Shown: in pieces, positions 253-32,435 of the stretch | Position numbering within the stretch: position 1 is the stretch's first letter | How the letters are laid out: each line of letters starts with the position of its first letter | Source of the DNA: a virus | IMG/VR virus record: IMGVR_UViG_3300037225_000238 | Location: 1-47,077 of that record | Strand: one strand, 5' to 3' | Length of the DNA stretch: 47,077 nt | Notes under the pieces: model-generated | Seen by the model: only the letters and a program-made list of their open reading frames with translations | What the model was told of the DNA's origin: nothing | Databases searched by the model: none | Made by a program: the position numbers and the translations under genes

Positions 253-2330
253 TCACAGCCAACAGTGACGCGGTATTTACGACGGGTAAGTGGGCGACGT
301 ATACCGCGCTCACCAACCCGGTGACGATCCTTACGAATGCTTATCGGATCACCGACACGGTACCGGGGACGCCAACTGCCCACGTCGCCCAATTCTCCAC
401 AGCGACAGGTGACATGACGGTAGGGTTGACCGTGACGAAGGTGGGGTCCGTGGACGGAACCGAGATCGTAGGTTTGTTATTCCGGATGTCGTCCAACGCC
501 GCCCAGGGATACGTCTTGGAGTATATCCCCGCAACGACGACAGGCAACCCCGTTATCACTGTCTATGATCAGACTGGGACGCCGGTGTACTCTGGCATAG
601 TGGCAGGGTATTCCCAGTCGTGGACCTCTTCTAACAGCGGGGCCGCGCCAGGGCAGATCACCGCGGATACTCCTGTCCGTTTGGTGGTCACGGCCACAGG
701 AACGAATCTGTCGATCTACATGAACGGGGTTCTGGTGGGCAGCGCTCCGGGAGTCTTGACAAACACGACTGGAACCTACGCAGGATTCGCCGCCTTTGGC
801 AATGGGGACCCTGGAAATATCTTCGATCTGTCGGACTTCGCCCTAGCCGGTGTGGCCTCTGCCCTGGGCGGCGGGGAACGCATCCTCGCGTGCAGTGCGG
901 GGACCCTCTACTCCGGGTCTGGGGGTGGGTCCTGGCAACTGGTCGCTGCTGGGTTCATCCCAACCGGGATCGTTCGGGCTCAGACGGCATTCAGCAAGGT
1001 CTACCTGACCGATGGGGTGTCGGCCCACTATCGGATCTATGACCCCGGCAGCCGTACGGTCATCACCTGGACCCCCACGGCGAACGTCCTACCAGTGGGG
1101 AAAGCCGATCCCAGTCTGGGGGCCACACTGATCGCCCTCTACCGTGGCCGGATCGTCCTGTCGGGCATCGCTGACGACCCCCAGAACTGGTTCATGTCCG
1201 CGGCCGGGGACCCGCTCGACTGGAACTACGGGGCAACTCCCTCAGCGACGATGGCTGTGGCGGGCAACAACTCGGTGGCAGGTCTGGTGGGCGACCGTAT
1301 CACTTGCCTGGCCCCGGCCAACGACGACCTCATGGTGATCGGAGGCGATCATACCGTCTGGATGATGCGGGGTGATCCCGCGGATGGTGGGAGAATCGAC
1401 AACATCAGCCAGCAGACGGGCATCGCCGGGCCGGACGCCTTCGCCTTCGATCCCCAGGCGGTGATGTACTTCTTCGGTAACGGCATCCTGTGGCGGCTGA
1501 CCCCGAAGGGTGAGTTGACCCCGATCAGTAGGGGGCGCATGGACCGGACGTTCGGGGCGATTGACCTCACTACCAGCACCATGCGGTTGCTCTGGGACAA
1601 GGTGCGGCATGGGCTCTACCTCTTCGTGACACCCCTGGTCAGCGGGCCGAGCACGTCCTTCTTCTGGGACGCCCGCACGGATAGTTTCTGGCCTGAGGAG
1701 TACCCGTATACTCATGGACCGACTGCGGTGCTGAACTTCGACGCCAATGCCCCCGGGGACCAGGCGCTCCTCCTGGGCGGTCAGGATGGTTACGTTCGGT
1801 ATGTTGACCCGACCGCGGTGACGGACGACGGTACCACGATCTATAGCCAAGTCCGCTTCGGCCCGATGACCCCTGGGAGCGTGCATCTCAACTCTCGCCT
1901 GAGTCGGGTTATCACGGTGCTGGAGACCAGCAGCGATCCAGCCAGCGTGCGGATCTACGCAGCCCAGTCCCCCGAGGAAGTGGTCGTGGCCAGTGCCCCA
2001 GCGTGGTCCTACTCAGCGACGGCGGTGGATCGCTACGGCGTTCCCCGGGTCAGTGGCAACTCCCTGATGTTCGAGATCGTGAATGACTCCTTCTCTGTCG
2101 CCTGGGCAACGGGCATGGTCTACTCGATTGGGGATCAGGTGGTGGCCGCGGATGGACTGCCCTACGTCGCTCTGATGGCACATACCAGCACGACTGGCGG
2201 GGCTCACCCCTCGCCGACCGGCGGGGGGAACACGACGGACTGGGCGTGGTCAAACTTCCGCACCTGGGCGCTGGAAAGTTTGAACGCGATCATCGAGACG
2301 AGCGGCCGGACGCGGCATGGGAGGCTGTAA
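3..2330 (+). CDS. Beta-propeller tail protein, 3' part (continues from 46360)
   Basis: This is the C-terminal part of a 931-aa protein that begins at 46360 and crosses the contig ends in frame. Visible parts of the full protein are: chitin-binding-like (CBM5/12-type) modules with the pattern W-x-x-G-x-x-Y-x-x-G-D-x-V at about residues 124-159, 171-213 and 219-256; a lectin/laminin-G-like beta domain at about 300-440 (GTNLSIYMNG); a long WD/beta-propeller-like stretch; and a fourth CBM-like module near residues 855-907. The propeller and the position after a head-tail adaptor resemble T7 gp12-type tail tube proteins. That role is inferred; the modules suggest contact with surface polysaccharide. 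The stop codon shares one base with the next start. Confidence 0.75.
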   Translation, partial: AKWYVYTAATTPPKWITGHLFNVGDLVVELNVVYICINSHTSGTFTTDFANADWQILDVVDWIPGQSYKVGDQVLEAGVLKVCITANSDAVFTTGKWATYTALTNPVTILTNAYRITDTVPGTPTAHVAQFSTATGDMTVGLTVTKVGSVDGTEIVGLLFRMSSNAAQGYVLEYIPATTTGNPVITVYDQTGTPVYSGIVAGYSQSWTSSNSGAAPGQITADTPVRLVVTATGTNLSIYMNGVLVGSAPGVLTNTTGTYAGFAAFGNGDPGNIFDLSDFALAGVASALGGGERILACSAGTLYSGSGGGSWQLVAAGFIPTGIVRAQTAFSKVYLTDGVSAHYRIYDPGSRTVITWTPTANVLPVGKADPSLGATLIALYRGRIVLSGIADDPQNWFMSAAGDPLDWNYGATPSATMAVAGNNSVAGLVGDRITCLAPANDDLMVIGGDHTVWMMRGDPADGGRIDNISQQTGIAGPDAFAFDPQAVMYFFGNGILWRLTPKGELTPISRGRMDRTFGAIDLTTSTMRLLWDKVRHGLYLFVTPLVSGPSTSFFWDARTDSFWPEEYPYTHGPTAVLNFDANAPGDQALLLGGQDGYVRYVDPTAVTDDGTTIYSQVRFGPMTPGSVHLNSRLSRVITVLETSSDPASVRIYAAQSPEEVVVASAPAWSYSATAVDRYGVPRVSGNSLMFEIVNDSFSVAWATGMVYSIGDQVVAADGLPYVALMAHTSTTGGAHPSPTGGGNTTDWAWSNFRTWALESLNAIIETSGRTRHGRL

Positions 2331-2782
2331 TGCCCAACCCTCTGATCGGCACAGGACGACGAGATCGGTTCCCCAAGGAGGATACCCGGCTCCGGCGAGG
2401 GCTGGCGACCACGGCGTTTGTGCCCTTCATCGGGGCCAACCAGAGTGTGGATCTGGGGGCGAACTCGATCATCGCCCTTCGGTTCTTCTCAACGGTGACG
2501 ACACTCTCCCTCCTTCCCCCATTCGTCGTGGCCTCGACTGTGGTGGTGGCGAATCTCAACGCCGATCTCCTGGACGGCCTACATGCGGCCGATCTCACGC
2601 TGGCTGGCTTGGCGGATGTCCAGATCGTTGGGGTGACGGACAGCCAGATGCTTGCGTATAGTAGCGGGCTCGGGAAATGGGTGGCGGTGGATGCTCGGGT
2701 GCCGTATACTGGAGCTACGGGCACTGTGGACCTGAACGGTCAGTACCTCAACAATGCGATCATAGACCAAGGAACGTGGTAG
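2330..2782 (+). CDS. Tail fibre-like protein
   Basis: 150 aa. ATG at 2330 overlaps the upstream TAA, so I chose it over the longer open frame from 2246. The middle has a motif common in tail fibres, NLNADLLDGLHAADL, and the end has PYTGATGTVDLNGQYL, the kind of short beta repeat seen in trimeric fibres. It is followed 9 bases later by another structural gene. The likely role is a fibre or fibre-tip component of the short tail. It is too short to be a full receptor-binding fibre alone, so it may work with the genes at 2792 and 4071. Confidence 0.6.
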   Translation: MPNPLIGTGRRDRFPKEDTRLRRGLATTAFVPFIGANQSVDLGANSIIALRFFSTVTTLSLLPPFVVASTVVVANLNADLLDGLHAADLTLAGLADVQIVGVTDSQMLAYSSGLGKWVAVDARVPYTGATGTVDLNGQYLNNAIIDQGTW

Positions 2783-2791
2783 GAGACGATC

Positions 2792-3196
2792 ATGGCAATG
2801 CGTCTGAACAATGCAGCGGCAAGCGCCGCCGCGGACAGCACGGGGTTGCGGGCGTACATCAATAACGCCAGTACCCCGATCCTCAAGTTCTACACGGGCA
2901 ACGTCAACGGGACGCCTGAGTCGGTCCCGGCTGGAACCCTGCTGGCCACGGTAACGTTGGCCGCGTTCGGGGCAGCGACCAACGGGGCAATCGCCAGCAC
3001 GGGCGGGTCCGTGGCTGCGGCTGCGTCCGGTACGGCGGGATGCTGGGCCCTCTTCCGTCCCGATGGAACAACCAAGGTGGCAGATGGTTCCGTCGCCCAG
3101 ACCTCCGGCGGTGACATCAACTTCGATGTCATTATCTGGGTGGCTGGTGGGACGGTTACGATGGGAACCTTCACGATCACAGTGCCTCCGGCGTAG
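2792..3196 (+). CDS. Small beta-rich virion protein
   Basis: 134 aa with a good AGGAGACGATC ribosome binding site before ATG 2792. It is rich in Ala, Gly, Thr and Val, without charged clusters or membrane segments, as in small tail or head beta-sandwich proteins. Small proteins with a similar MRLNNAAASAAADS start occur in many phage structural modules. The exact role is unknown. It lies between a fibre-like gene and a sulfotransferase. Confidence 0.55.
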   Translation: MAMRLNNAAASAAADSTGLRAYINNASTPILKFYTGNVNGTPESVPAGTLLATVTLAAFGAATNGAIASTGGSVAAAASGTAGCWALFRPDGTTKVADGSVAQTSGGDINFDVIIWVAGGTVTMGTFTITVPPA

Positions 3197-3205
3197 GAGG
3201 GGTGT

Positions 3206-3730
3206 ATGATTTTGGTTAACGGCATACCGAAATCCGGTACGCACGCTTTGCTCAAAGCGGTGCAACTACTTGGTATTCCTGACGATGCTGTGCGGCTGGA
3301 ACATCTACCATTTGGATTACTACCCGATGGGGTGAACAAGCACATCTACATCATCCGGCATCCTCGAAACGTGCTAGTGTCCTACTGTCGCTGGCAGAAC
3401 CGACCCGTTGCCGCCGGAATGCTCATCGGTTTTATGCGGTCCTTTGAGGGCAAGTCGTTCGCAGATTACTGGCAGACGTTCTCAGGATGGATGACTGATC
3501 CCGCTACGTTTGTCGTGAGATACGAGGCTCTTCTGGCCAATTCTGCTGTGATTGCAAAGATCGCGGCCTATCTGGGTGTACCGTGTTTGGTGGATGCTTT
3601 TGCCAATATCCCCGGCCTCACTCCGACGTGGACTGGAGCCCCGTCTGATTGGTCAACGGTCTGGAATAGGGACATTGACGCGGAGTGGCAGAAGGATTGC
3701 CAGGGTATTCAAGAAGCGATGGGATACTGA
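3206..3730 (+). CDS. Sulfotransferase family protein (PAPS-dependent)
   Basis: 174 aa. Members of this family move a sulfuryl group from PAPS to a hydroxyl or amine. Family hallmarks are visible in order: the 5'-phosphosulfate loop IPKSGTHAL at residues 7-15, the 3'-phosphate binding motif IIRHPRNVLVSY at 49-60 with Arg51 and Ser59, the RYEALL strand at 105-110, and a C-terminal TGAPSDWS at 143-150 matching the usual G-x-x-G-D-W segment. It is shorter than cellular enzymes (usually 250-300 aa) but looks complete. The ribosome binding site is GGAGG. It sits among tail fibre genes in a stretch richer in A/T than its neighbours, which suggests acquisition. The substrate may be host surface glycan or virion protein; that is inference. 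Confidence 0.8.
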   Translation: MILVNGIPKSGTHALLKAVQLLGIPDDAVRLEHLPFGLLPDGVNKHIYIIRHPRNVLVSYCRWQNRPVAAGMLIGFMRSFEGKSFADYWQTFSGWMTDPATFVVRYEALLANSAVIAKIAAYLGVPCLVDAFANIPGLTPTWTGAPSDWSTVWNRDIDAEWQKDCQGIQEAMGY

Positions 3731-4068
3731 TGGAACTAGTAATTCACATGGTGGACTGGGCTGATCGGATAGCGGGCGATGTTGTGGTTGCCATGCCAGA
3801 CGGTCACTCTTGGAGTAAGACGGAACTATCTAATCCTGATTGGCGTATCGTGCGAGTGCCAATCACTCAGGTAGAGGCCACAGCCTTGACGAGTTCGGAT
3901 GAATCATTTTCTCCGTCCAGTAAGTTCGTTTCCCGAAAGTACAATATCGCCTTGGCGTCTTTGCCTGGAGAACTGACAAAGGAATTGTCCAAACCGGCTG
4001 TCGTTGTCCTCGATGCCTCGCCGTATCTTGTACAGATTCGGGCCGCCTCGAAACTGAAAGCTAAATAG
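3730..4068 (+). CDS. Hypothetical tail-module protein
   Basis: 112 aa. ATG 3730 shares one base with the TGA of the sulfotransferase gene, so the two are coupled; I rejected the upstream start at 3685. It has a GDVVVAMPDGHSW segment and an NPDWRIVRVPI segment, and no membrane helix or signal. I do not recognise a family with a known function. By position it is a tail accessory protein, possibly linked to the sulfotransferase or to the spike that follows. Confidence 0.5.
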   Translation: MELVIHMVDWADRIAGDVVVAMPDGHSWSKTELSNPDWRIVRVPITQVEATALTSSDESFSPSSKFVSRKYNIALASLPGELTKELSKPAVVVLDASPYLVQIRAASKLKAK

Positions 4069-4070
4069 TA

Positions 4071-5594
4071 ATGTCTGTGACCACTGTGACCAATCTGATT
4101 GGAGCGAACCAGACATACACGACGCTGGCGACATGGTTTGCCGCCTGTCCGGCGAATCTCGTAACCGCGTACGGAGGAAATGGGGAAATATGGCGGGGGT
4201 TAGTGAACGCTCCGTCCGATAGTCTGGCCGGACTTACCATGTCGGGTGTAACGACCAGCAACACCTGCTACGTCGAACTGACCACGAACGCAGGGGCCAG
4301 TTTTCGGGATAATGCGGGCGTGCAGACGAATCCGCTTACGGGGGACGCAAGCAAGGGCGCGACAATATCCTCGGCCGTCTCGACGACCTCGATGGATGTA
4401 CGTGTAAGTAACTTGCAGATCATTGGGACAGGAACTCGCGCGTTCTATTCGCAGGACGCATCGAATAAGACTGTGGTGCTTTCCAATTGCATCTGCATGA
4501 GCAATCCGGGGGACGCGCACGGAGTAGTGTCCATCTACGGGACGAACCAGTCGATGAACAACTGTCTAGTGGTGGACACGCACAGCCATGCCGCTCATTC
4601 AATGGCGTATGTGGGCAATGGCGCTAAGGCTTATAATTGCACGATTGTTGCCCCGTCCAACTTGGGAACGAAGCCCAATATTGGGATTAAGGGAGACTAC
4701 GACACGCCGCTTCTGACCAACTGTTCTGTATTTGGAGCGGCGGCCGTCAAGAGTGGCACCCCCACGTTCACGAATTGCGTATCGGACATATCCGGAACTA
4801 CGGGAGTCATCCAGGTCACGTACAACAACTCCGCGTTTGTGGACACCACCAACAACTGGAAGCCAGCCGTGGGTTCGACGGCCCTGAAACTTGGGGCGAC
4901 GGATAACACGGGAACGCCGGCTACGGACATCGTTGGCTCGTCTCGGAGCGGAACGGGGGCCGGATCGTGCTTTGACGGGTGCTGGGAGTTGGTAGCGGCG
5001 GCGACCTACACTGGTTCCGGTGGGGGCACAGTCGAGAAGGCCACAACCTCGGCGACGGGGGCGTACACCACTCCTGTCTATACAGCGAGTGGGTCGCCCT
5101 CCTGCAAGAAGGCCACGGCTTCGGCTGCAGCGACATTCACGGTGCCAGTCTACACTGGCACCGGTAGTCCATCTGCCACAAAGGCCACGGCCTCCGCAAC
5201 GGGGACCGCTACCACTCCAGTCTACACTGGGACCGGAACGCCCTCTGCGGTGAAGGCGACAGCCTCGGCGTCGGGCACCTACGTTGGCCTGATCTACACG
5301 GGCGCAGGCAGTCCGTCTGTCACGAAGACCAGTGCTTCTGCCGCAGCGACATACGCGAACGTAACGTACACCGGCGACGGATCGCCGACCGTGACTCCGG
5401 CCACTGGGTCTTCCTCCGGTACCTTCGTCCTGGTCGTCCCACTCGAGACGGTCTACCCCAGCGTCATTACCAAACACGGGACGACCACACCGACGACGTT
5501 CGACCTGGCCGATTTCCAACTTGGCTTCGACTCAGCAGCAGGGAAACTATACATCCGCAGTGGGGCCTCAATCATCTTGATCGGTCCCCCGTAG
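4071..5594 (+). CDS. Tail spike-like protein, beta-helix plus tandem repeats
   Basis: 507 aa. Residues about 1-300 have the short Asn/Thr/Val-rich turns of a right-handed beta-helix (for example AYNCTIVAPSN, LTNCSVFG), as in tail spikes and polysaccharide-binding fibres. Residues 313-456 are six tandem 24-aa repeats starting Y-T-G-x-G-x-P. The last 45 residues (TPTTFDLADFQLGF, GKLYIRSG) match the pattern of a short structural domain found in phage receptor-binding proteins such as the N-terminal domain of the major tropism determinant, here at the C-terminus. It probably binds the host surface. No catalytic residues can be assigned. Confidence 0.6.
   Translation: MSVTTVTNLIGANQTYTTLATWFAACPANLVTAYGGNGEIWRGLVNAPSDSLAGLTMSGVTTSNTCYVELTTNAGASFRDNAGVQTNPLTGDASKGATISSAVSTTSMDVRVSNLQIIGTGTRAFYSQDASNKTVVLSNCICMSNPGDAHGVVSIYGTNQSMNNCLVVDTHSHAAHSMAYVGNGAKAYNCTIVAPSNLGTKPNIGIKGDYDTPLLTNCSVFGAAAVKSGTPTFTNCVSDISGTTGVIQVTYNNSAFVDTTNNWKPAVGSTALKLGATDNTGTPATDIVGSSRSGTGAGSCFDGCWELVAAATYTGSGGGTVEKATTSATGAYTTPVYTASGSPSCKKATASAAATFTVPVYTGTGSPSATKATASATGTATTPVYTGTGTPSAVKATASASGTYVGLIYTGAGSPSVTKTSASAAATYANVTYTGDGSPTVTPATGSSSGTFVLVVPLETVYPSVITKHGTTTPTTFDLADFQLGFDSAAGKLYIRSGASIILIGPP
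5007..5438 (+). repeat. Six tandem 72-bp (24-aa) repeats inside the spike gene
   Basis: Six consecutive in-frame units of exactly 24 residues, with consensus Y-T-G-T-G-S-P-S-x-x-K-A-T-A-S-A-x-G-T-x-x-x-x-V. Codon choice differs between units at many third positions, so the array is old or under selection to diverge. Such Thr/Ser/Gly arrays usually form extended beta shafts or stalks. Confidence 0.9.
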
Positions 5595-19675: not shown

Positions 19676-19751
19676 CAAGGCGGGCGGGGAGTCGAACCCC
19701 GCGATTCGCTGGATTATTAGTCCACTGCTTTTCCGCTTTAGCTACCGCCTC
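19676..19751 (-). tRNA. tRNA, anticodon read as AAU (Ile), uncertain
   Basis: A 76-nt cloverleaf on the minus strand. The acceptor GAGGCGG (19751-19745) pairs with CCGCCTT (19683-19677), with one G-T pair. T8 and A9 are present, and the D-arm is GCT...AGC. The anticodon arm is TGGA-CTAATAA-TCCA, giving AAT at positions 34-36, and the T-arm is CGGGG TTCGACT CCCCG. The terminal CCA is not encoded. Pair 27-43 is G-G and the variable loop is about 7 nt, so it is not a textbook class I tRNA. An unmodified A34 isoleucine tRNA is unusual in bacteria. Confidence 0.65.
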
Positions 19752-25483: not shown

Positions 25484-25678
25484 CTACACCCGATCCTTCC
25501 ACGCTCGCTGATAGCCCAGGGCGTACTGATCGGTGTCACTCAGGTAGCCGGGCCTGGGCTCCTTGCGGATGTCCGTGTCCGAGACACCGTGAACGTAGCC
25601 GTTGGTGAACTCCACAGTCCAGTCGGAGTGCTTCCGCCGGAGAGCGGCGAAGAGATTGTTCTGATCGCTGGCAAGCAT
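25484..25678 (-). CDS. Small hypothetical protein
   Basis: 64 aa. ATG 25678 shares its first base with the polymerase TAA. The sequence (NNLFAALRRKHSDWTVEFTN, then YALGYQRAWKD) looks like a compact alpha/beta domain. It sits between the polymerase and the HNH gene and may be a polymerase-linked accessory; nothing in it is diagnostic. Confidence 0.55.
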   Translation of the reverse strand: MLASDQNNLFAALRRKHSDWTVEFTNGYVHGVSDTDIRKEPRPGYLSDTDQYALGYQRAWKDRV

Positions 25679-27684
25679 TACTCGTACCTTTCGCTGGTAG
25701 ATGCCTCAACCCCAAGTGGCCAATTCGGTGCCCAGAGCGGCGGGGACACCAGGGCGGCACACACGCACGCCTTGGCCTCTTCCGCCCGTGATTTCTCGAC
25801 CGATACCACGATGCTGTCGTGACAGTGAAGGGCCACACGGAACCCCGCCGCCTCTACCGCCAGGACAGCCTCCACCAGGACATCCCTGCTCACAGCCTGG
25901 ATGCAATTCTCAACCAGCGAGCCCCCCCAAAGATCGGCCCAGGTGGGTCCGGCTTTCCACTGGAGTCGGCCTTCTCCATCAACATGAGCGTGCGGGTAGA
26001 ACAAGCTGCGGCCTGACGGCAAGGTGAGGACTGTCGTTGTCCCTTCACGGGACATCGTAAGACCTCGCAGAGTGCGAGGTTGTCCGTATCGTGTGACATA
26101 GGTGAAGCTGGCCTCCAGGTCCCGCCATAGGGCGGGGATCATGCGGTACCTGTTGCGGTAGGTGTCCACAAAGTTCTTACAGAAGGCGAGGTCGATCTCC
26201 CCCGACTCTACCTTTGGGCGAAGGTCAGGGAAGTCCTCCATGTACTCCAGTGCCCTAACAGAACCCATACCATATCCCATTCCGAGAATTCCTACTTTTC
26301 CGAGAGATCGGCGGGTGGACAGCACCTTCGCCACGGCTGGGGGATCGTCCTTGCGAGGCTTCCGGCACGGGGCACCCAGGACCTCGGCGGCGAAGTCAGA
26401 GTAGATGTCGCGGTTCTGGGCAAATGCCTGGACGAGATCGGTCTGCCCGGCCAGCCAGGCAAGCCCCCTGGCCTCGATCTGGGCGGCGTCCGCGTGGACT
26501 ATCAGGCACCCAGCGGGGGCACGGAGTAGGTGCTTGATCTCACATTGCAGCCCACCGCCACGGGTCGGCAAGTTCTGTAGGTTGATCCCCTCCCCGCCGG
26601 AGAATCGGCCCGTGCTCGCACCGTAGTAGTTGACAGCGTTCGGCAGACGACCCCCAGCGGCCTCCGCCTGGGCTCGCATCGACTCAACCCGTTTCAGGTG
26701 GAGGGGCCACGATTTCACCGACTGCCGGGCCTTGATGAGATCGCGGACCTTCGGGTTGCGGTGACGCTTGTACTGCTCGACGGCCTCGTCGTCCTTGGCC
26801 AGAGCAGCGATCATTTTCTTCTTCCCCTGCTTCATCGCCAGGACCTCCCCGGTCTCGGCCAGGGCGGCACTCAGGATGTTGGCAAAGCTCGTATTCCCAC
26901 TGATACCCTTGAGGGTGTACCCCACGGCCTCGGTGTCCTTCGCAGCCTGGGCCTCCATCAACCCAGTCAGCCGGTCGGCCTCGGCGAAGTCGAACACCAA
27001 CTCGGGCTCCCAGAACAACCTCAAGGTATGCCGCTGGAGGGGCAGTTCGACCTCGGGGCGGGTCAGCCTGGGCAGCATCAGGGCAAACAGGTCGAACTCC
27101 CGCTCCGCGTCGTTACATGCGTAGGCGGCGAAAGCTGATCGCATTTCGACTGATGCCGTTTCCCAGTGGACCCCCTTGAAGTTCATCGTGTCGCCCTTCG
27201 GGGGCAGGTTCCACCGCTCGCAGAGATCGTGCAGGTTGTGGGTGTTGCGGGCATCGCCGTGCCGGGATAGTGCAAGTATGTCTACGCAGAAAGGCGGCAC
27301 AATACCGTGCTTGCGAACGAGGATAGAGCCGTCGAAACGGGCATTCTGAATCACCACCGTTGCCCGCTCCAGGTTCTCCCCGTATTGACTCTTGAGCCAA
27401 TTCAACTCCTCCTTCACTCCCGGCCAGAATGTCGCCTGCCTGGGGGCGTAGGGTGCGTCCCCCTTCACGATCAGCACCGCGACCCCCTGCTCCTCGTATC
27501 TGCGATCCTCTATGTATTCAATTGTGGACAAGCCGCTGTTGCCCTTACCCTTCATGTGGTACGAAGAGTCAAAAAAAGTCTCCATATCGAGAACGAGCAC
27601 GTCCGTTGGCCAGCCGACTTGACGTAGCACGTTCACCCAGGCAGCGGATTGCTCGGGTCGTGGGATCGAGGGTGGGGGCATCAT
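25678..27684 (-). CDS. polA: DNA polymerase, family A, with 3'-5' exonuclease
   Basis: 668 aa. Exonuclease motifs: Exo I D33-x-E35 (VLDMET), Exo II NARFD with Asp118, Exo III Y188-x3-D192. Polymerase motifs: A at VHADAAQIEAR (Asp399), B at RRSLGKVGILGMGYG (458-472), and C at HCHDSIVV. In the O helix the residue equivalent to E. coli Phe762 is Leu467. Motif C reads HDS where most enzymes have HDE. There is no 5'-3' nuclease domain, as usual for phage enzymes. It is the main replicative polymerase with the primase-helicase at 17048-19282. HNH genes flank it on both sides. It begins MMPPPSIP, sharing the Pro tag of nearby proteins. Confidence 0.9.
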   Translation of the reverse strand: MMPPPSIPRPEQSAAWVNVLRQVGWPTDVLVLDMETFFDSSYHMKGKGNSGLSTIEYIEDRRYEEQGVAVLIVKGDAPYAPRQATFWPGVKEELNWLKSQYGENLERATVVIQNARFDGSILVRKHGIVPPFCVDILALSRHGDARNTHNLHDLCERWNLPPKGDTMNFKGVHWETASVEMRSAFAAYACNDAEREFDLFALMLPRLTRPEVELPLQRHTLRLFWEPELVFDFAEADRLTGLMEAQAAKDTEAVGYTLKGISGNTSFANILSAALAETGEVLAMKQGKKKMIAALAKDDEAVEQYKRHRNPKVRDLIKARQSVKSWPLHLKRVESMRAQAEAAGGRLPNAVNYYGASTGRFSGGEGINLQNLPTRGGGLQCEIKHLLRAPAGCLIVHADAAQIEARGLAWLAGQTDLVQAFAQNRDIYSDFAAEVLGAPCRKPRKDDPPAVAKVLSTRRSLGKVGILGMGYGMGSVRALEYMEDFPDLRPKVESGEIDLAFCKNFVDTYRNRYRMIPALWRDLEASFTYVTRYGQPRTLRGLTMSREGTTTVLTLPSGRSLFYPHAHVDGEGRLQWKAGPTWADLWGGSLVENCIQAVSRDVLVEAVLAVEAAGFRVALHCHDSIVVSVEKSRAEEAKACVCAALVSPPLWAPNWPLGVEASTSERYE

Positions 27685-28220
27685 GCTGTAGGTTCCTCCC
27701 CGATGTATTTACGGAATGCTCGGCAGTACGCCTCGTGGGCTTCTTCGGCAGTATCGAATCGCCCTAGATGCTTCTGCTTCCCATCCATGCCCAGGCGGGC
27801 GTACCATCGGCCCCGGTCGAAACCCGTTCCTTTAAGGTGCCCTGGTTTCGAGCGACGTTTGTAGTGGTGCCTACTCCGGGTAGTCTGCTCCAGGTTCCCA
27901 CGCCGATTATCCGTTCTGTCGTGGTTCTTGTGATGAACATCGACACCGAGAGGGGCCGGGAGGATGAGGCGGTGCATCGGAAGCTGGGTTTGCCGCGTCG
28001 GCGAGACCCTGATCGTGGTACAGACGTAGCCCCGTGACGTGATGTGCCAGCGATAGCCGTTCACCAGAGCCAGGTCCTCGGTATCGACCCGGCAAGACCC
28101 GCCGGTAATCTGGACCTCGACCCACTCGCAGCCAGCCACCACCGCCCCCGATTGGTCCCCGCCCGGTAAAGGGAGTCGGGGGGGCGTAGTCCGTGATGTG
28201 ATCGGGGGCGGTGGTAGCAT
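27681..28220 (-). CDS. HNH endonuclease with AP2-like DNA-binding domain
   Basis: 179 aa. Residues about 90-140 carry the HNH core (MHRLIL, VDVHHKNHDRTDNRRGNLEQ), and residues about 140-175 an AP2-like beta sheet (GRWYARLGMDGKQKHLGRFD, then TAEEAHEAYCRAFRKY). This pairing is typical of homing endonucleases of phages. The start has AGGA upstream, the first residues are MLPPPPIT, and the stop overlaps the polymerase start (ATGA). It is a second, unrelated HNH gene beside the polymerase. Confidence 0.85.
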   Translation of the reverse strand: MLPPPPITSRTTPPRLPLPGGDQSGAVVAGCEWVEVQITGGSCRVDTEDLALVNGYRWHITSRGYVCTTIRVSPTRQTQLPMHRLILPAPLGVDVHHKNHDRTDNRRGNLEQTTRSRHHYKRRSKPGHLKGTGFDRGRWYARLGMDGKQKHLGRFDTAEEAHEAYCRAFRKYIGEEPTA

Positions 28221-30423: not shown

Positions 30424-31230
30424 TCAGATCTCCTCTTCCGGTGGAACCACGCTTCCGCAATCCGGGCAGTAGCGTCCTCGACCTATCGTGATTAACTCAC
30501 ATCGGGCGAAGATCAGACCGCAGAGGGAACACTCCTCTTCGTCCTCGTCCTCGTCCTCGTCCATATTGGTATCGCCGTCCGCGTATCGACATTGCCAATC
30601 TCGCTCAACTAGCATATCGGGATCGTCGCTGTTTACAGAGGAAAACAGGCTCCTTCCCTTCCCAGTATATTGTGGCGTAATCCGCAAGGGGCGATAGCCC
30701 CGGTTGGAATACCATACACCCTCGTCCCATATCCCATCCCCTTCGTTCGATATGGTTGCGTGGCCGTCCGAATTGAGGAATACGAATTTAGAGGCATTCA
30801 CTTCGGCGTAGGCGTCTAGTAATGGAAGATACGCGTCTGGAATGTTCCCATCGGGTAGGATAGTCGCTAGGCTATCGACGAAAATAGCCGTGTCGGACCT
30901 AGGGGAATTCTCCGGGAGTTCCATAAGAAGAATCCCGTTATGTACCATTGCAAGGTGCGGATTGATATTGAACGGGTGGCACATCATCGGGTTGATACTG
31001 CCCGATGTGGCGATACGGAAGTGAAGGACGAAATTCGCTTCCGGGTGCTCCCGCAATGCGGCACAATAGGCTACATGGAACATCTTGAACTTCATGTAGC
31101 CTTTACACACTGTCAGGGAACCACTAGCGGCGTACATGAAACCCGCACCGTTCGGGTTGCTCTCCCAGCATTGGCGTAAGGTGGCGTCATCGATATGCTT
31201 ACCGGCCGGTTTGTAGATTGCGATACACAT
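30424..31230 (-). CDS. Class II glutamine amidotransferase-like protein
   Basis: 268 aa. It begins MCIAIYKPAG, placing the catalytic Cys at residue 2 as in Ntn-type glutamine amidotransferases. Further family signs are NPNGAGFMY, the FRIATSG strand, the CHPF segment, and MVHNGIL. The C-terminal 60 residues carry an acidic run encoded by GTCCTC repeats and a zinc-ribbon-like C-x2-C...C...C-x2-C. It would release ammonia from glutamine for a partner synthetase. That partner is very likely the amidoligase just upstream, whose stop overlaps this start. The codon and base composition is A/T-richer than that of most of the genome. Confidence 0.75.
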   Translation of the reverse strand: MCIAIYKPAGKHIDDATLRQCWESNPNGAGFMYAASGSLTVCKGYMKFKMFHVAYCAALREHPEANFVLHFRIATSGSINPMMCHPFNINPHLAMVHNGILLMELPENSPRSDTAIFVDSLATILPDGNIPDAYLPLLDAYAEVNASKFVFLNSDGHATISNEGDGIWDEGVWYSNRGYRPLRITPQYTGKGRSLFSSVNSDDPDMLVERDWQCRYADGDTNMDEDEDEDEEECSLCGLIFARCELITIGRGRYCPDCGSVVPPEEEI

Positions 31231-32435
31231 TAGATAATCATCTCCTTTGCAACCAGGAAGGCATAAAGATGCGGATACTCCTTGCGATTCTTGACCACAA
31301 AAGCCAAGAAATTCGCTTTATTCACTTTGGGGATAGCAGTATCCCGCGTAAAGGTAAAGGCGGCATGTACGAATTCTAGGTTTTTCCAGAACCCGTCGGG
31401 TGCAAGGGTGCCTCGAAATACGCGAATTTCCACCGTGTGGCGATTCTGGAGATTAACGGCCGAATATCGATTTCCTATATTCCGCTTGTTCTTGGCTTTG
31501 TAGATGATCCCACGATTGGTATCGTCGAACGCCGCCCATCGAGTTAACGCGGCCAGTGAAGATCGGCCGGAAATGGTCAAGATCATGTCCTGTTCCTCCA
31601 AGAACAAGCGGAGGAACTTGTAGAGATGTGCAGACCCCACAAATGCGTTGGCGGATAGGTGGACGTGCATTCCACAAGTAGTTGTCTCGAAAGATCGAAA
31701 CCCGCCTTTTAGGACGCGGCCTAGTAACGTATTCCAGTGTCCGTTATTCTCCTGTAACCATTGCCAAGATAGCGGGTGACTAACAATCTCGAATCCATTG
31801 TCCAGAGAACCATCGTTTTTGGCGTAGACGAAACCGGGGAGCCCCTCGGCCATATGGGCACAGGTGCGCAGGTTCCGGGTGTTCTCTACCTCTAGTTCGA
31901 TCCCGAGAAACAATCGGTTGGATTGACTTGGTTCCCATCGTCCGTTATGGAAACAGGGCGTGGGTTTGTAGTCATGATTGTGGATAACGCTAGATTCGTT
32001 TTCGGCTGGATAGCACGATTCGCAGAGGTGTCGCTCTGATTCTTCATGGTAGTGGAGATAGTCGATGTGGTATTCCCCACCGCATGAATCGCAATACCCG
32101 TAGTGTTCGGAATAGCAAGTTTGGCAGAGATTCGAGTTGTCAATGTGAACAATATCCTTGACGAAGACTACCTCACTGCAATGATCACATTCTGTATAGG
32201 CGGCGTCATAGCATGACTTGCATAACGGATCGCCGTTCGGGGATTGCCTCGCATCGTCCCGTTGACATACGCAGTCGCAAGAATCGCAATGAACGTGATC
32301 CTCATTGAAGCAATCGAGACAGAGGGTCTCCTCGTCTACCTCCTCCGCTTCCTCCTCAGGGAACAATTCACCGCATCGGGAACAGGCAATGTGGGGCGGG
32401 GGGATGAGCTCTGCAGGGAATAGTGACGGCGGCAT
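31230..32435 (-). CDS. Amidoligase with N-terminal zinc fingers
   Basis: 401 aa. Residues about 18-143 contain at least four LIM/zinc-ribbon-like C-x2-C units (CSRCGE, CDSCDC, CDHCSE, CDSCGG). Residues about 175-395 match the glutamine-synthetase-fold amidoligase family (Amidoligase_2): LGIELEVE, NDGSLDNGFEIVSHPL, TTCGMHVHLS, and EIRVFRGTL. Family members are proposed to join an amine to a carboxyl group in peptide tags or small metabolites using ATP. The link to a class II amidotransferase is a known genomic theme for this family in phages. GGAG precedes ATG 32435. Substrate unknown. Confidence 0.8.
   Translation of the reverse strand: MPPSLFPAELIPPPHIACSRCGELFPEEEAEEVDEETLCLDCFNEDHVHCDSCDCVCQRDDARQSPNGDPLCKSCYDAAYTECDHCSEVVFVKDIVHIDNSNLCQTCYSEHYGYCDSCGGEYHIDYLHYHEESERHLCESCYPAENESSVIHNHDYKPTPCFHNGRWEPSQSNRLFLGIELEVENTRNLRTCAHMAEGLPGFVYAKNDGSLDNGFEIVSHPLSWQWLQENNGHWNTLLGRVLKGGFRSFETTTCGMHVHLSANAFVGSAHLYKFLRLFLEEQDMILTISGRSSLAALTRWAAFDDTNRGIIYKAKNKRNIGNRYSAVNLQNRHTVEIRVFRGTLAPDGFWKNLEFVHAAFTFTRDTAIPKVNKANFLAFVVKNRKEYPHLYAFLVAKEMII

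Follow-up and report, generated by a model that had tools for sequence, protein, structure and literature searches.

A compact sulfotransferase of 174 aa is encoded in the tail fibre region of the phage contig studied here (IMG/VR record IMGVR_UViG_3300037225_000238; the whole stretch of 47,077 nucleotides is referred to as the window), where it forms a cassette with genes for a small protein and a beta-helix-type protein. Sequence and structural model suggest a minimal PAPS-dependent sulfotransferase that looks catalytically intact and is predicted to be active. We tentatively regard the cassette as a mobile unit for virion sulfation, in which the minimal sulfotransferase, sometimes accompanied by a mini APS kinase and an adenylyltransferase of its own, would sulfate the adjoining fibre and would be exchangeable for other modifying enzymes, e.g. 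a cupin-like protein. We assign this reading a probability of about 0.38. A previous sequence-only reading had interpreted the gene as serving sulfation of the host surface glycan or of phage tail proteins, an interpretation that our analysis supports in part. The region contains the following features:

2330..2782, plus strand: fibre stub followed by the cassette, with an N-terminus conserved in cassette-free relatives (homology to the fibres of G006, G007 and G012)
2792..3196, plus strand: 134-aa virion-type protein, a possible, weakly indicated fourth cassette member (match to L042:7570-7995)
3195..3200, plus strand: Shine-Dalgarno sequence AGGAGG, 5 nt before the ATG, read directly from the sequence
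3206..3730, plus strand: compact PAPS-type sulfotransferase, 174 aa (PF00685, AlphaFold model, SULT fold, residue conservation)
3730..4068, plus strand: 112-aa partner protein, its start overlapping the sulfotransferase stop (homologues in 18 sulfotransferase cassettes and in most cupin cassettes)
4071..5594, plus strand: 507-aa beta-helix-like, fibre-type protein with C-terminal Ser/Thr-rich repeats (homologues in all cassettes)

The sulfotransferase gene and its active site

The reading frame at 3206-3730 is a real gene. Its ATG lies behind a strong Shine-Dalgarno sequence, AGGAGG, its TGA at 3728-3730 overlaps the ATG (3730) of the next open reading frame in the form TGATG, and the product matches PF00685 Sulfotransfer_1 (E = 1.1e-8) with 35.2 bits, the curated cut-off being 22. 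The protein matched no family of PHROGs or NCBIfam. A chance reading frame is ruled out by this profile match, by homologues from unrelated phages with 44% identity and by a confidently predicted fold. The AlphaFold model, built from an alignment containing 14 viral sequences, reached a pLDDT of 95.5 and a pTM of 0.89. Searched with Foldseek, it retrieved cytosolic sulfotransferases (SULT2B1b, E 2.4e-8), and residues 1-174 were superimposed by VIA-align onto SULT1C3 (2reo; Z 15.4, rmsd 2.8, 168 aligned). The family profile matched SULT4A1 at 3e-13.

The PAPS-binding hallmarks described in the sequence-only reading are indeed present, namely the 5′-PSB motif N-G-I-P-K9-S-G-T-H and the 3′-PB motif R51-H-P-R-N-V-L-V-S59. 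The assignment to the sulfotransferases thus holds, since a SULT fold including the PSB site is predicted and both Arg51 and Ser59 are retained in 18/18 cassette members. In addition, His33 (HLPFGLLP), which had previously gone unmentioned, aligns with the HLP segment of the SULTs, which carries their catalytic histidine; His33 occupies this position. Like Arg51 and Ser59, Lys9 and His33 occur in each of the 18 cassette members, and Lys9 is replaced by N only in L002, a more distant relative. At the place of the C-terminal PAPS motif RKGxxGDWK a conserved TWTGxxSDxxxxW is found and the Arg-Lys pair is absent, as judged by eye. The protein is small because it lacks, relative to SULT4A1, about 35 residues separating the P-loop helix from the histidine, and because of other shortening. 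A sulfotransferase tree, with too few alignment columns, contained no strongly supported branch.

With a GC content of 0.53 and a GC3 of 0.58, the gene differs from its neighbours (GC 0.62-0.64, GC3 about 0.75), as had been noted before. However, this anomaly is not unique to the sulfotransferase gene. The low-GC stretch runs from 3206 to about 4850 and thus spans three genes, i.e. the sulfotransferase gene, the 112-aa reading frame and the 5′ half of the beta-helix gene.

A recurrent cassette with an apparently exchangeable first gene

Compact viral sulfotransferases were gathered by alignment-based searches, and their surroundings were scanned with HMMs. The order sulfotransferase, protein of about 105-150 aa and beta-helix-type protein is kept in at least 18 viral contigs (window, L042, L045, L046, L052, L053, L055, L056, L078, L092, L094, L106, L112, L113, L116, L117, L119 and L120). 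The three genes are directly adjacent in 17 of these 18, the exception being L092 with one inserted HAD-type gene. This HAD-type hydrolase (L092:5287-5613), located between the sulfotransferase and the small gene, could recycle the by-product PAP. L113 and L120 encode the small protein and the beta-helix protein as a single fusion. The terms beta-helix and fibre for the 507-aa protein reflect the character of its sequence, for which Pfam gave no match. The 112-aa partner was modelled with a pLDDT of 82, and a PDB fold search with it remained without a match (best E 3.1). The match of the 134-aa protein in L042, at an equivalent position, amounts to 31.5% identity over 73 aa (E 0.006).

Apart from one pair with 90% identity, the sulfotransferases of the cassettes are at most 66% identical to each other. 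The carriers have differing portal and capsid families (phrog_332, phrog_156, phrog_12 and others), and the cassette is located near portal, scaffold and capsid genes in L042, L078 and L094, near connectors in L053, L056 and L092, and among tail genes in the window. The diversity of carriers and locations indicates that the cassette moves as a unit. The position between fibre genes, emphasised in the earlier reading, is therefore correct for the window but not general, as the cassette often lies among head genes in relatives. None of the cassette members (sulfotransferase, partner, cupin or beta-helix protein) was found in a cultured phage or matched in 50,697 phage records, and two scans of bacterial genomes yielded no relative.

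The phage represented by the window encodes an SU10-type portal (PF23899), a family A DNA polymerase and a D5-like primase/helicase. The sulfotransferase gene is absent from all 13 contigs with a related terminase, several of which are fragments not reaching the region. An ordinary gene of this phage lineage is ruled out by this distribution (0/13, only some of which include the region). Relatives spanning the region share the gene order tail gene, fibre, 5616-type gene and 6225-type gene. Three of them (G006, G007 and G012) have a long fibre of 289-459 aa; in the window its place is taken by a short fibre stub with the extra genes behind it. The sulfotransferase gene and the two genes after it have thus been inserted into a variable fibre region or have replaced part of it.

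An alignment search with the beta-helix protein, independent of the sulfotransferase, yielded 36 loci, most of which have the small gene before the beta-helix gene. The gene preceding the small gene encodes in most loci a sulfotransferase or a cupin-like protein, never both at one locus. The latter carries the motif GHxHxFDH ... HEITAL, and its assignment relies on this motif together with a Pfam Cupin_2 match below threshold, obtained for L082. Cupin-like proteins of about 105-150 aa are encoded directly upstream of the small gene in L066-L072, L075, L077, L079, L081-L087, L098 and L099. In L073 the slot is occupied by a methyltransferase gene. Considering this alternation, the methyltransferase and at least three switches between sulfotransferase and cupin labels in the beta-helix tree, the enzymes in the slot seem to be interchangeable.

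Probable donor supply, proposed acceptor and alternative explanations

Five contigs encode a mini APS kinase of 104-111 aa directly upstream of the sulfotransferase gene, the kinase gene overlapping its start:

L053:420-737, mini APS kinase gene
L055:7693-8007, mini APS kinase gene
L092:4384-4719, mini APS kinase gene
L106:4684-5004, mini APS kinase gene
L116:4673-4999, mini APS kinase gene

Their matches to PF01583 range from E 1.6e-13 to 4.4e-19 (51-69 bits, cut-off 21.1); the four tested against NCBIfam apsK scored 50-71 bits, below the cut-off of 138.7. L092 and L116 additionally encode an HxGH nucleotidyltransferase (CTP_transf_like), an adenylyltransferase of the NMNAT/ATP-sulfurylase type whose best NCBIfam match is NMN adenylyltransferase and whose weak ATP-sulfurylase match falls below the respective cut-off. 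When 18 whole records (the window and records bearing a sulfotransferase) were searched for PF01583, L053, L055 and L092 gave a match and the window gave none; L106 and L116 supplied the remaining two of the five genes. The earlier view of a PAPS-type enzyme encoded outside a metabolic gene cluster is borne out by the fold, the conserved residues and the APS kinase neighbours in five relatives. The simplest reading of this neighbourhood is a local PAPS supply, so that some relatives would obtain PAPS from the phage APS kinase. The window phage, having neither APS kinase nor adenylyltransferase genes, would draw on host PAPS.

According to our model, a late structural transcript would carry the sulfotransferase gene, with translation coupled to that of the 112-aa partner and the beta-helix fibre-type protein. 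Computation supplies the fold, the residue set, the cassette linkage and the donor genes beside the enzyme in relatives; activity, late timing, acceptor and effect are inferred from these. Lys9, Arg51 and Ser59 would hold the donor PAPS and His33 would act as the base. The sulfuryl group would then pass from PAPS to hydroxyls on the beta-helix fibre, either of its Ser/Thr-rich repeats or of a sugar on them, and fibre sulfation would give the virion surface negative charge. The chance that the sulfotransferase is expressed in this way and finds its acceptor in its own cassette, most likely in the beta-helix fibre, is in our estimate not far below even.

The constant linkage to the pair of about 112-aa and beta-helix proteins, whatever the location, favours a fibre-related role. 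Moreover, the C-terminal tails of the beta-helix proteins have a higher Ser+Thr content next to a sulfotransferase than next to a cupin (means 0.253 versus 0.169, p 0.002, without correction for phylogeny); in the beta-helix domain itself the difference is weaker (p 0.02, likewise uncorrected). In the window, positions 4980-5450 encode about five degenerate Ser/Thr-rich repeats of about 24 aa (YTGxGSPSxxKATASA) in the tail of the beta-helix protein, and a repeat finder detected no DNA-level tandem repeat in this tail. A sulfotransferase-specific acceptor within the beta-helix domain was sought, and no Ser, Thr or Tyr position specific to sulfotransferase-linked copies was found. Related but more distant sulfotransferases outside cassettes (L043, L059 and L121) are encoded among glycosyltransferases and methyltransferases, a setting that suits a glycan acceptor. 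Weighing the linkage and the Ser/Thr-rich tails against the lack of a specific acceptor residue and the relatives in glycan clusters, we slightly favour the virion fibre over a host glycan as the acceptor. We know of no sulfated phage protein; this, like the lack of an APS kinase gene in the window, counts against sulfation of the fibre.

Sulfation of the host surface glycan late in infection would amount to receptor masking, by which progeny would avoid debris and infected cells, and the linkage to the beta-helix protein would be explained by binding of this protein to the same glycan. Phage seroconversion is a known analogue of such masking. Members of the family reside within glycan clusters elsewhere, both viral (L043 and L059) and bacterial (L003, near capsule/LPS sugar genes), and the cassette of the window stands in for the variable part of the fibre region. 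Nevertheless, we consider masking less likely than fibre sulfation, because the cassette is often found in head modules and not at receptor-binding genes and because the beta-helix partner is only a putative receptor binder. Furthermore, the sulfotransferase begins directly with the P-loop strand, leaving no space for an export signal, so that an enzyme engaged in masking would need cytoplasmic glycan precursors.

Two further explanations concern the chemistry of the enzyme. Phosphoramidate synthesis in Campylobacter involves a nucleotide phosphoramidate produced by a CysC-like kinase. By analogy, the mini APS kinase and the adenylyltransferase could make another nucleotide donor, and the slot enzyme might act on a small molecule or on an analogue of PAPS. 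The scores of the mini APS kinases below the apsK cut-off and the preference of the adenylyltransferase for NMNAT models are consistent with such a donor, but the SULT fold and complete PAPS site of the transferase and the clear PF01583 matches of the kinases make it improbable. Even less probable is that the sulfotransferase fold serves a structural or chaperone role without catalysis, to which the location among structural genes and the unusually small size might point; the donor and catalytic residues are invariant across 18 diverged proteins, and in five contigs genes for PAPS synthesis adjoin the sulfotransferase gene.

Relation to known systems and other genes of the window

The protein shares with cytosolic SULTs (PF00685; SULT1C3, SULT2B1b and SULT4A1) the full-length fold, the 5′-PSB P-K-S-G-T, the 3′-PB R..P(R)N....S and the HLP segment, but it has 174 aa instead of about 290 aa and only about 20% identity. 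The nearest cellular matches, with 26-27% identity, are alphaproteobacterial plasmid sulfotransferases from Pseudosulfitobacter, Rhizobium and Azospirillum. These are larger (216-240 aa), the annotated ones are located near capsule/LPS sugar genes or transposases, the Pseudosulfitobacter gene being in a glycan gene cluster, and no beta-helix partner is annotated. The mini APS kinases of the relatives have the P-loop and LDGDxxR of the APS kinase CysC (PF01583), which is larger (about 180-200 aa).

Phage sulfotransferases as such are already known (PMC10580990, PMC8290583). Those annotated in OM43 phage contigs and in Synechococcus phage S-SRM01 are likewise phage-encoded members of the PAPS-type family, but they were described as Sulfotransfer_3 genes of unclear function and not as part of a fibre-linked cassette (PMC10580990). 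In the papers searched, no link of a phage sulfotransferase with APS kinase or with fibre genes was found. Neither these papers nor the 50,697 phage records contained the compact, fibre-linked sulfotransferase cassette. A precedent for self-modification of virions is found in mycobacteriophages, in which capsid or virion surface proteins are glycosylated by a phage enzyme; this was reported from experiments and concerns glycosyl transfer (PMC12363180), as opposed to the sulfuryl transfer inferred here. While phage sulfotransferases have been classed as auxiliary metabolic genes of unclear function, the association of a compact subfamily with a recurring virion-type gene pair and, in some phages, with PAPS-making genes suggests a concrete function, i.e. 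sulfation of the particle or of the receptor. The cassette thus suggests that phages have an undescribed means of altering the chemistry of their own virion or of the cell surface. Should the fibre be the acceptor, this would be the first phage-made sulfated virion known to us, and the exchange for a cupin-like gene suggests a broader set of swappable fibre-modifying enzymes.

Three other loci of the window, all on the minus strand, deserve mention. A protein with HNH_3 and AP2-like domains, possibly a homing endonuclease, is encoded at 27681-28220 beside the family A DNA polymerase gene (25678-27684). The product of 31230-32435 is an Amidoligase_2 protein with an N-terminal match to a dksA/traR-type zinc finger, and a single tRNA-Ile gene, with the anticodon reported as aat, is located at 19676-19751.
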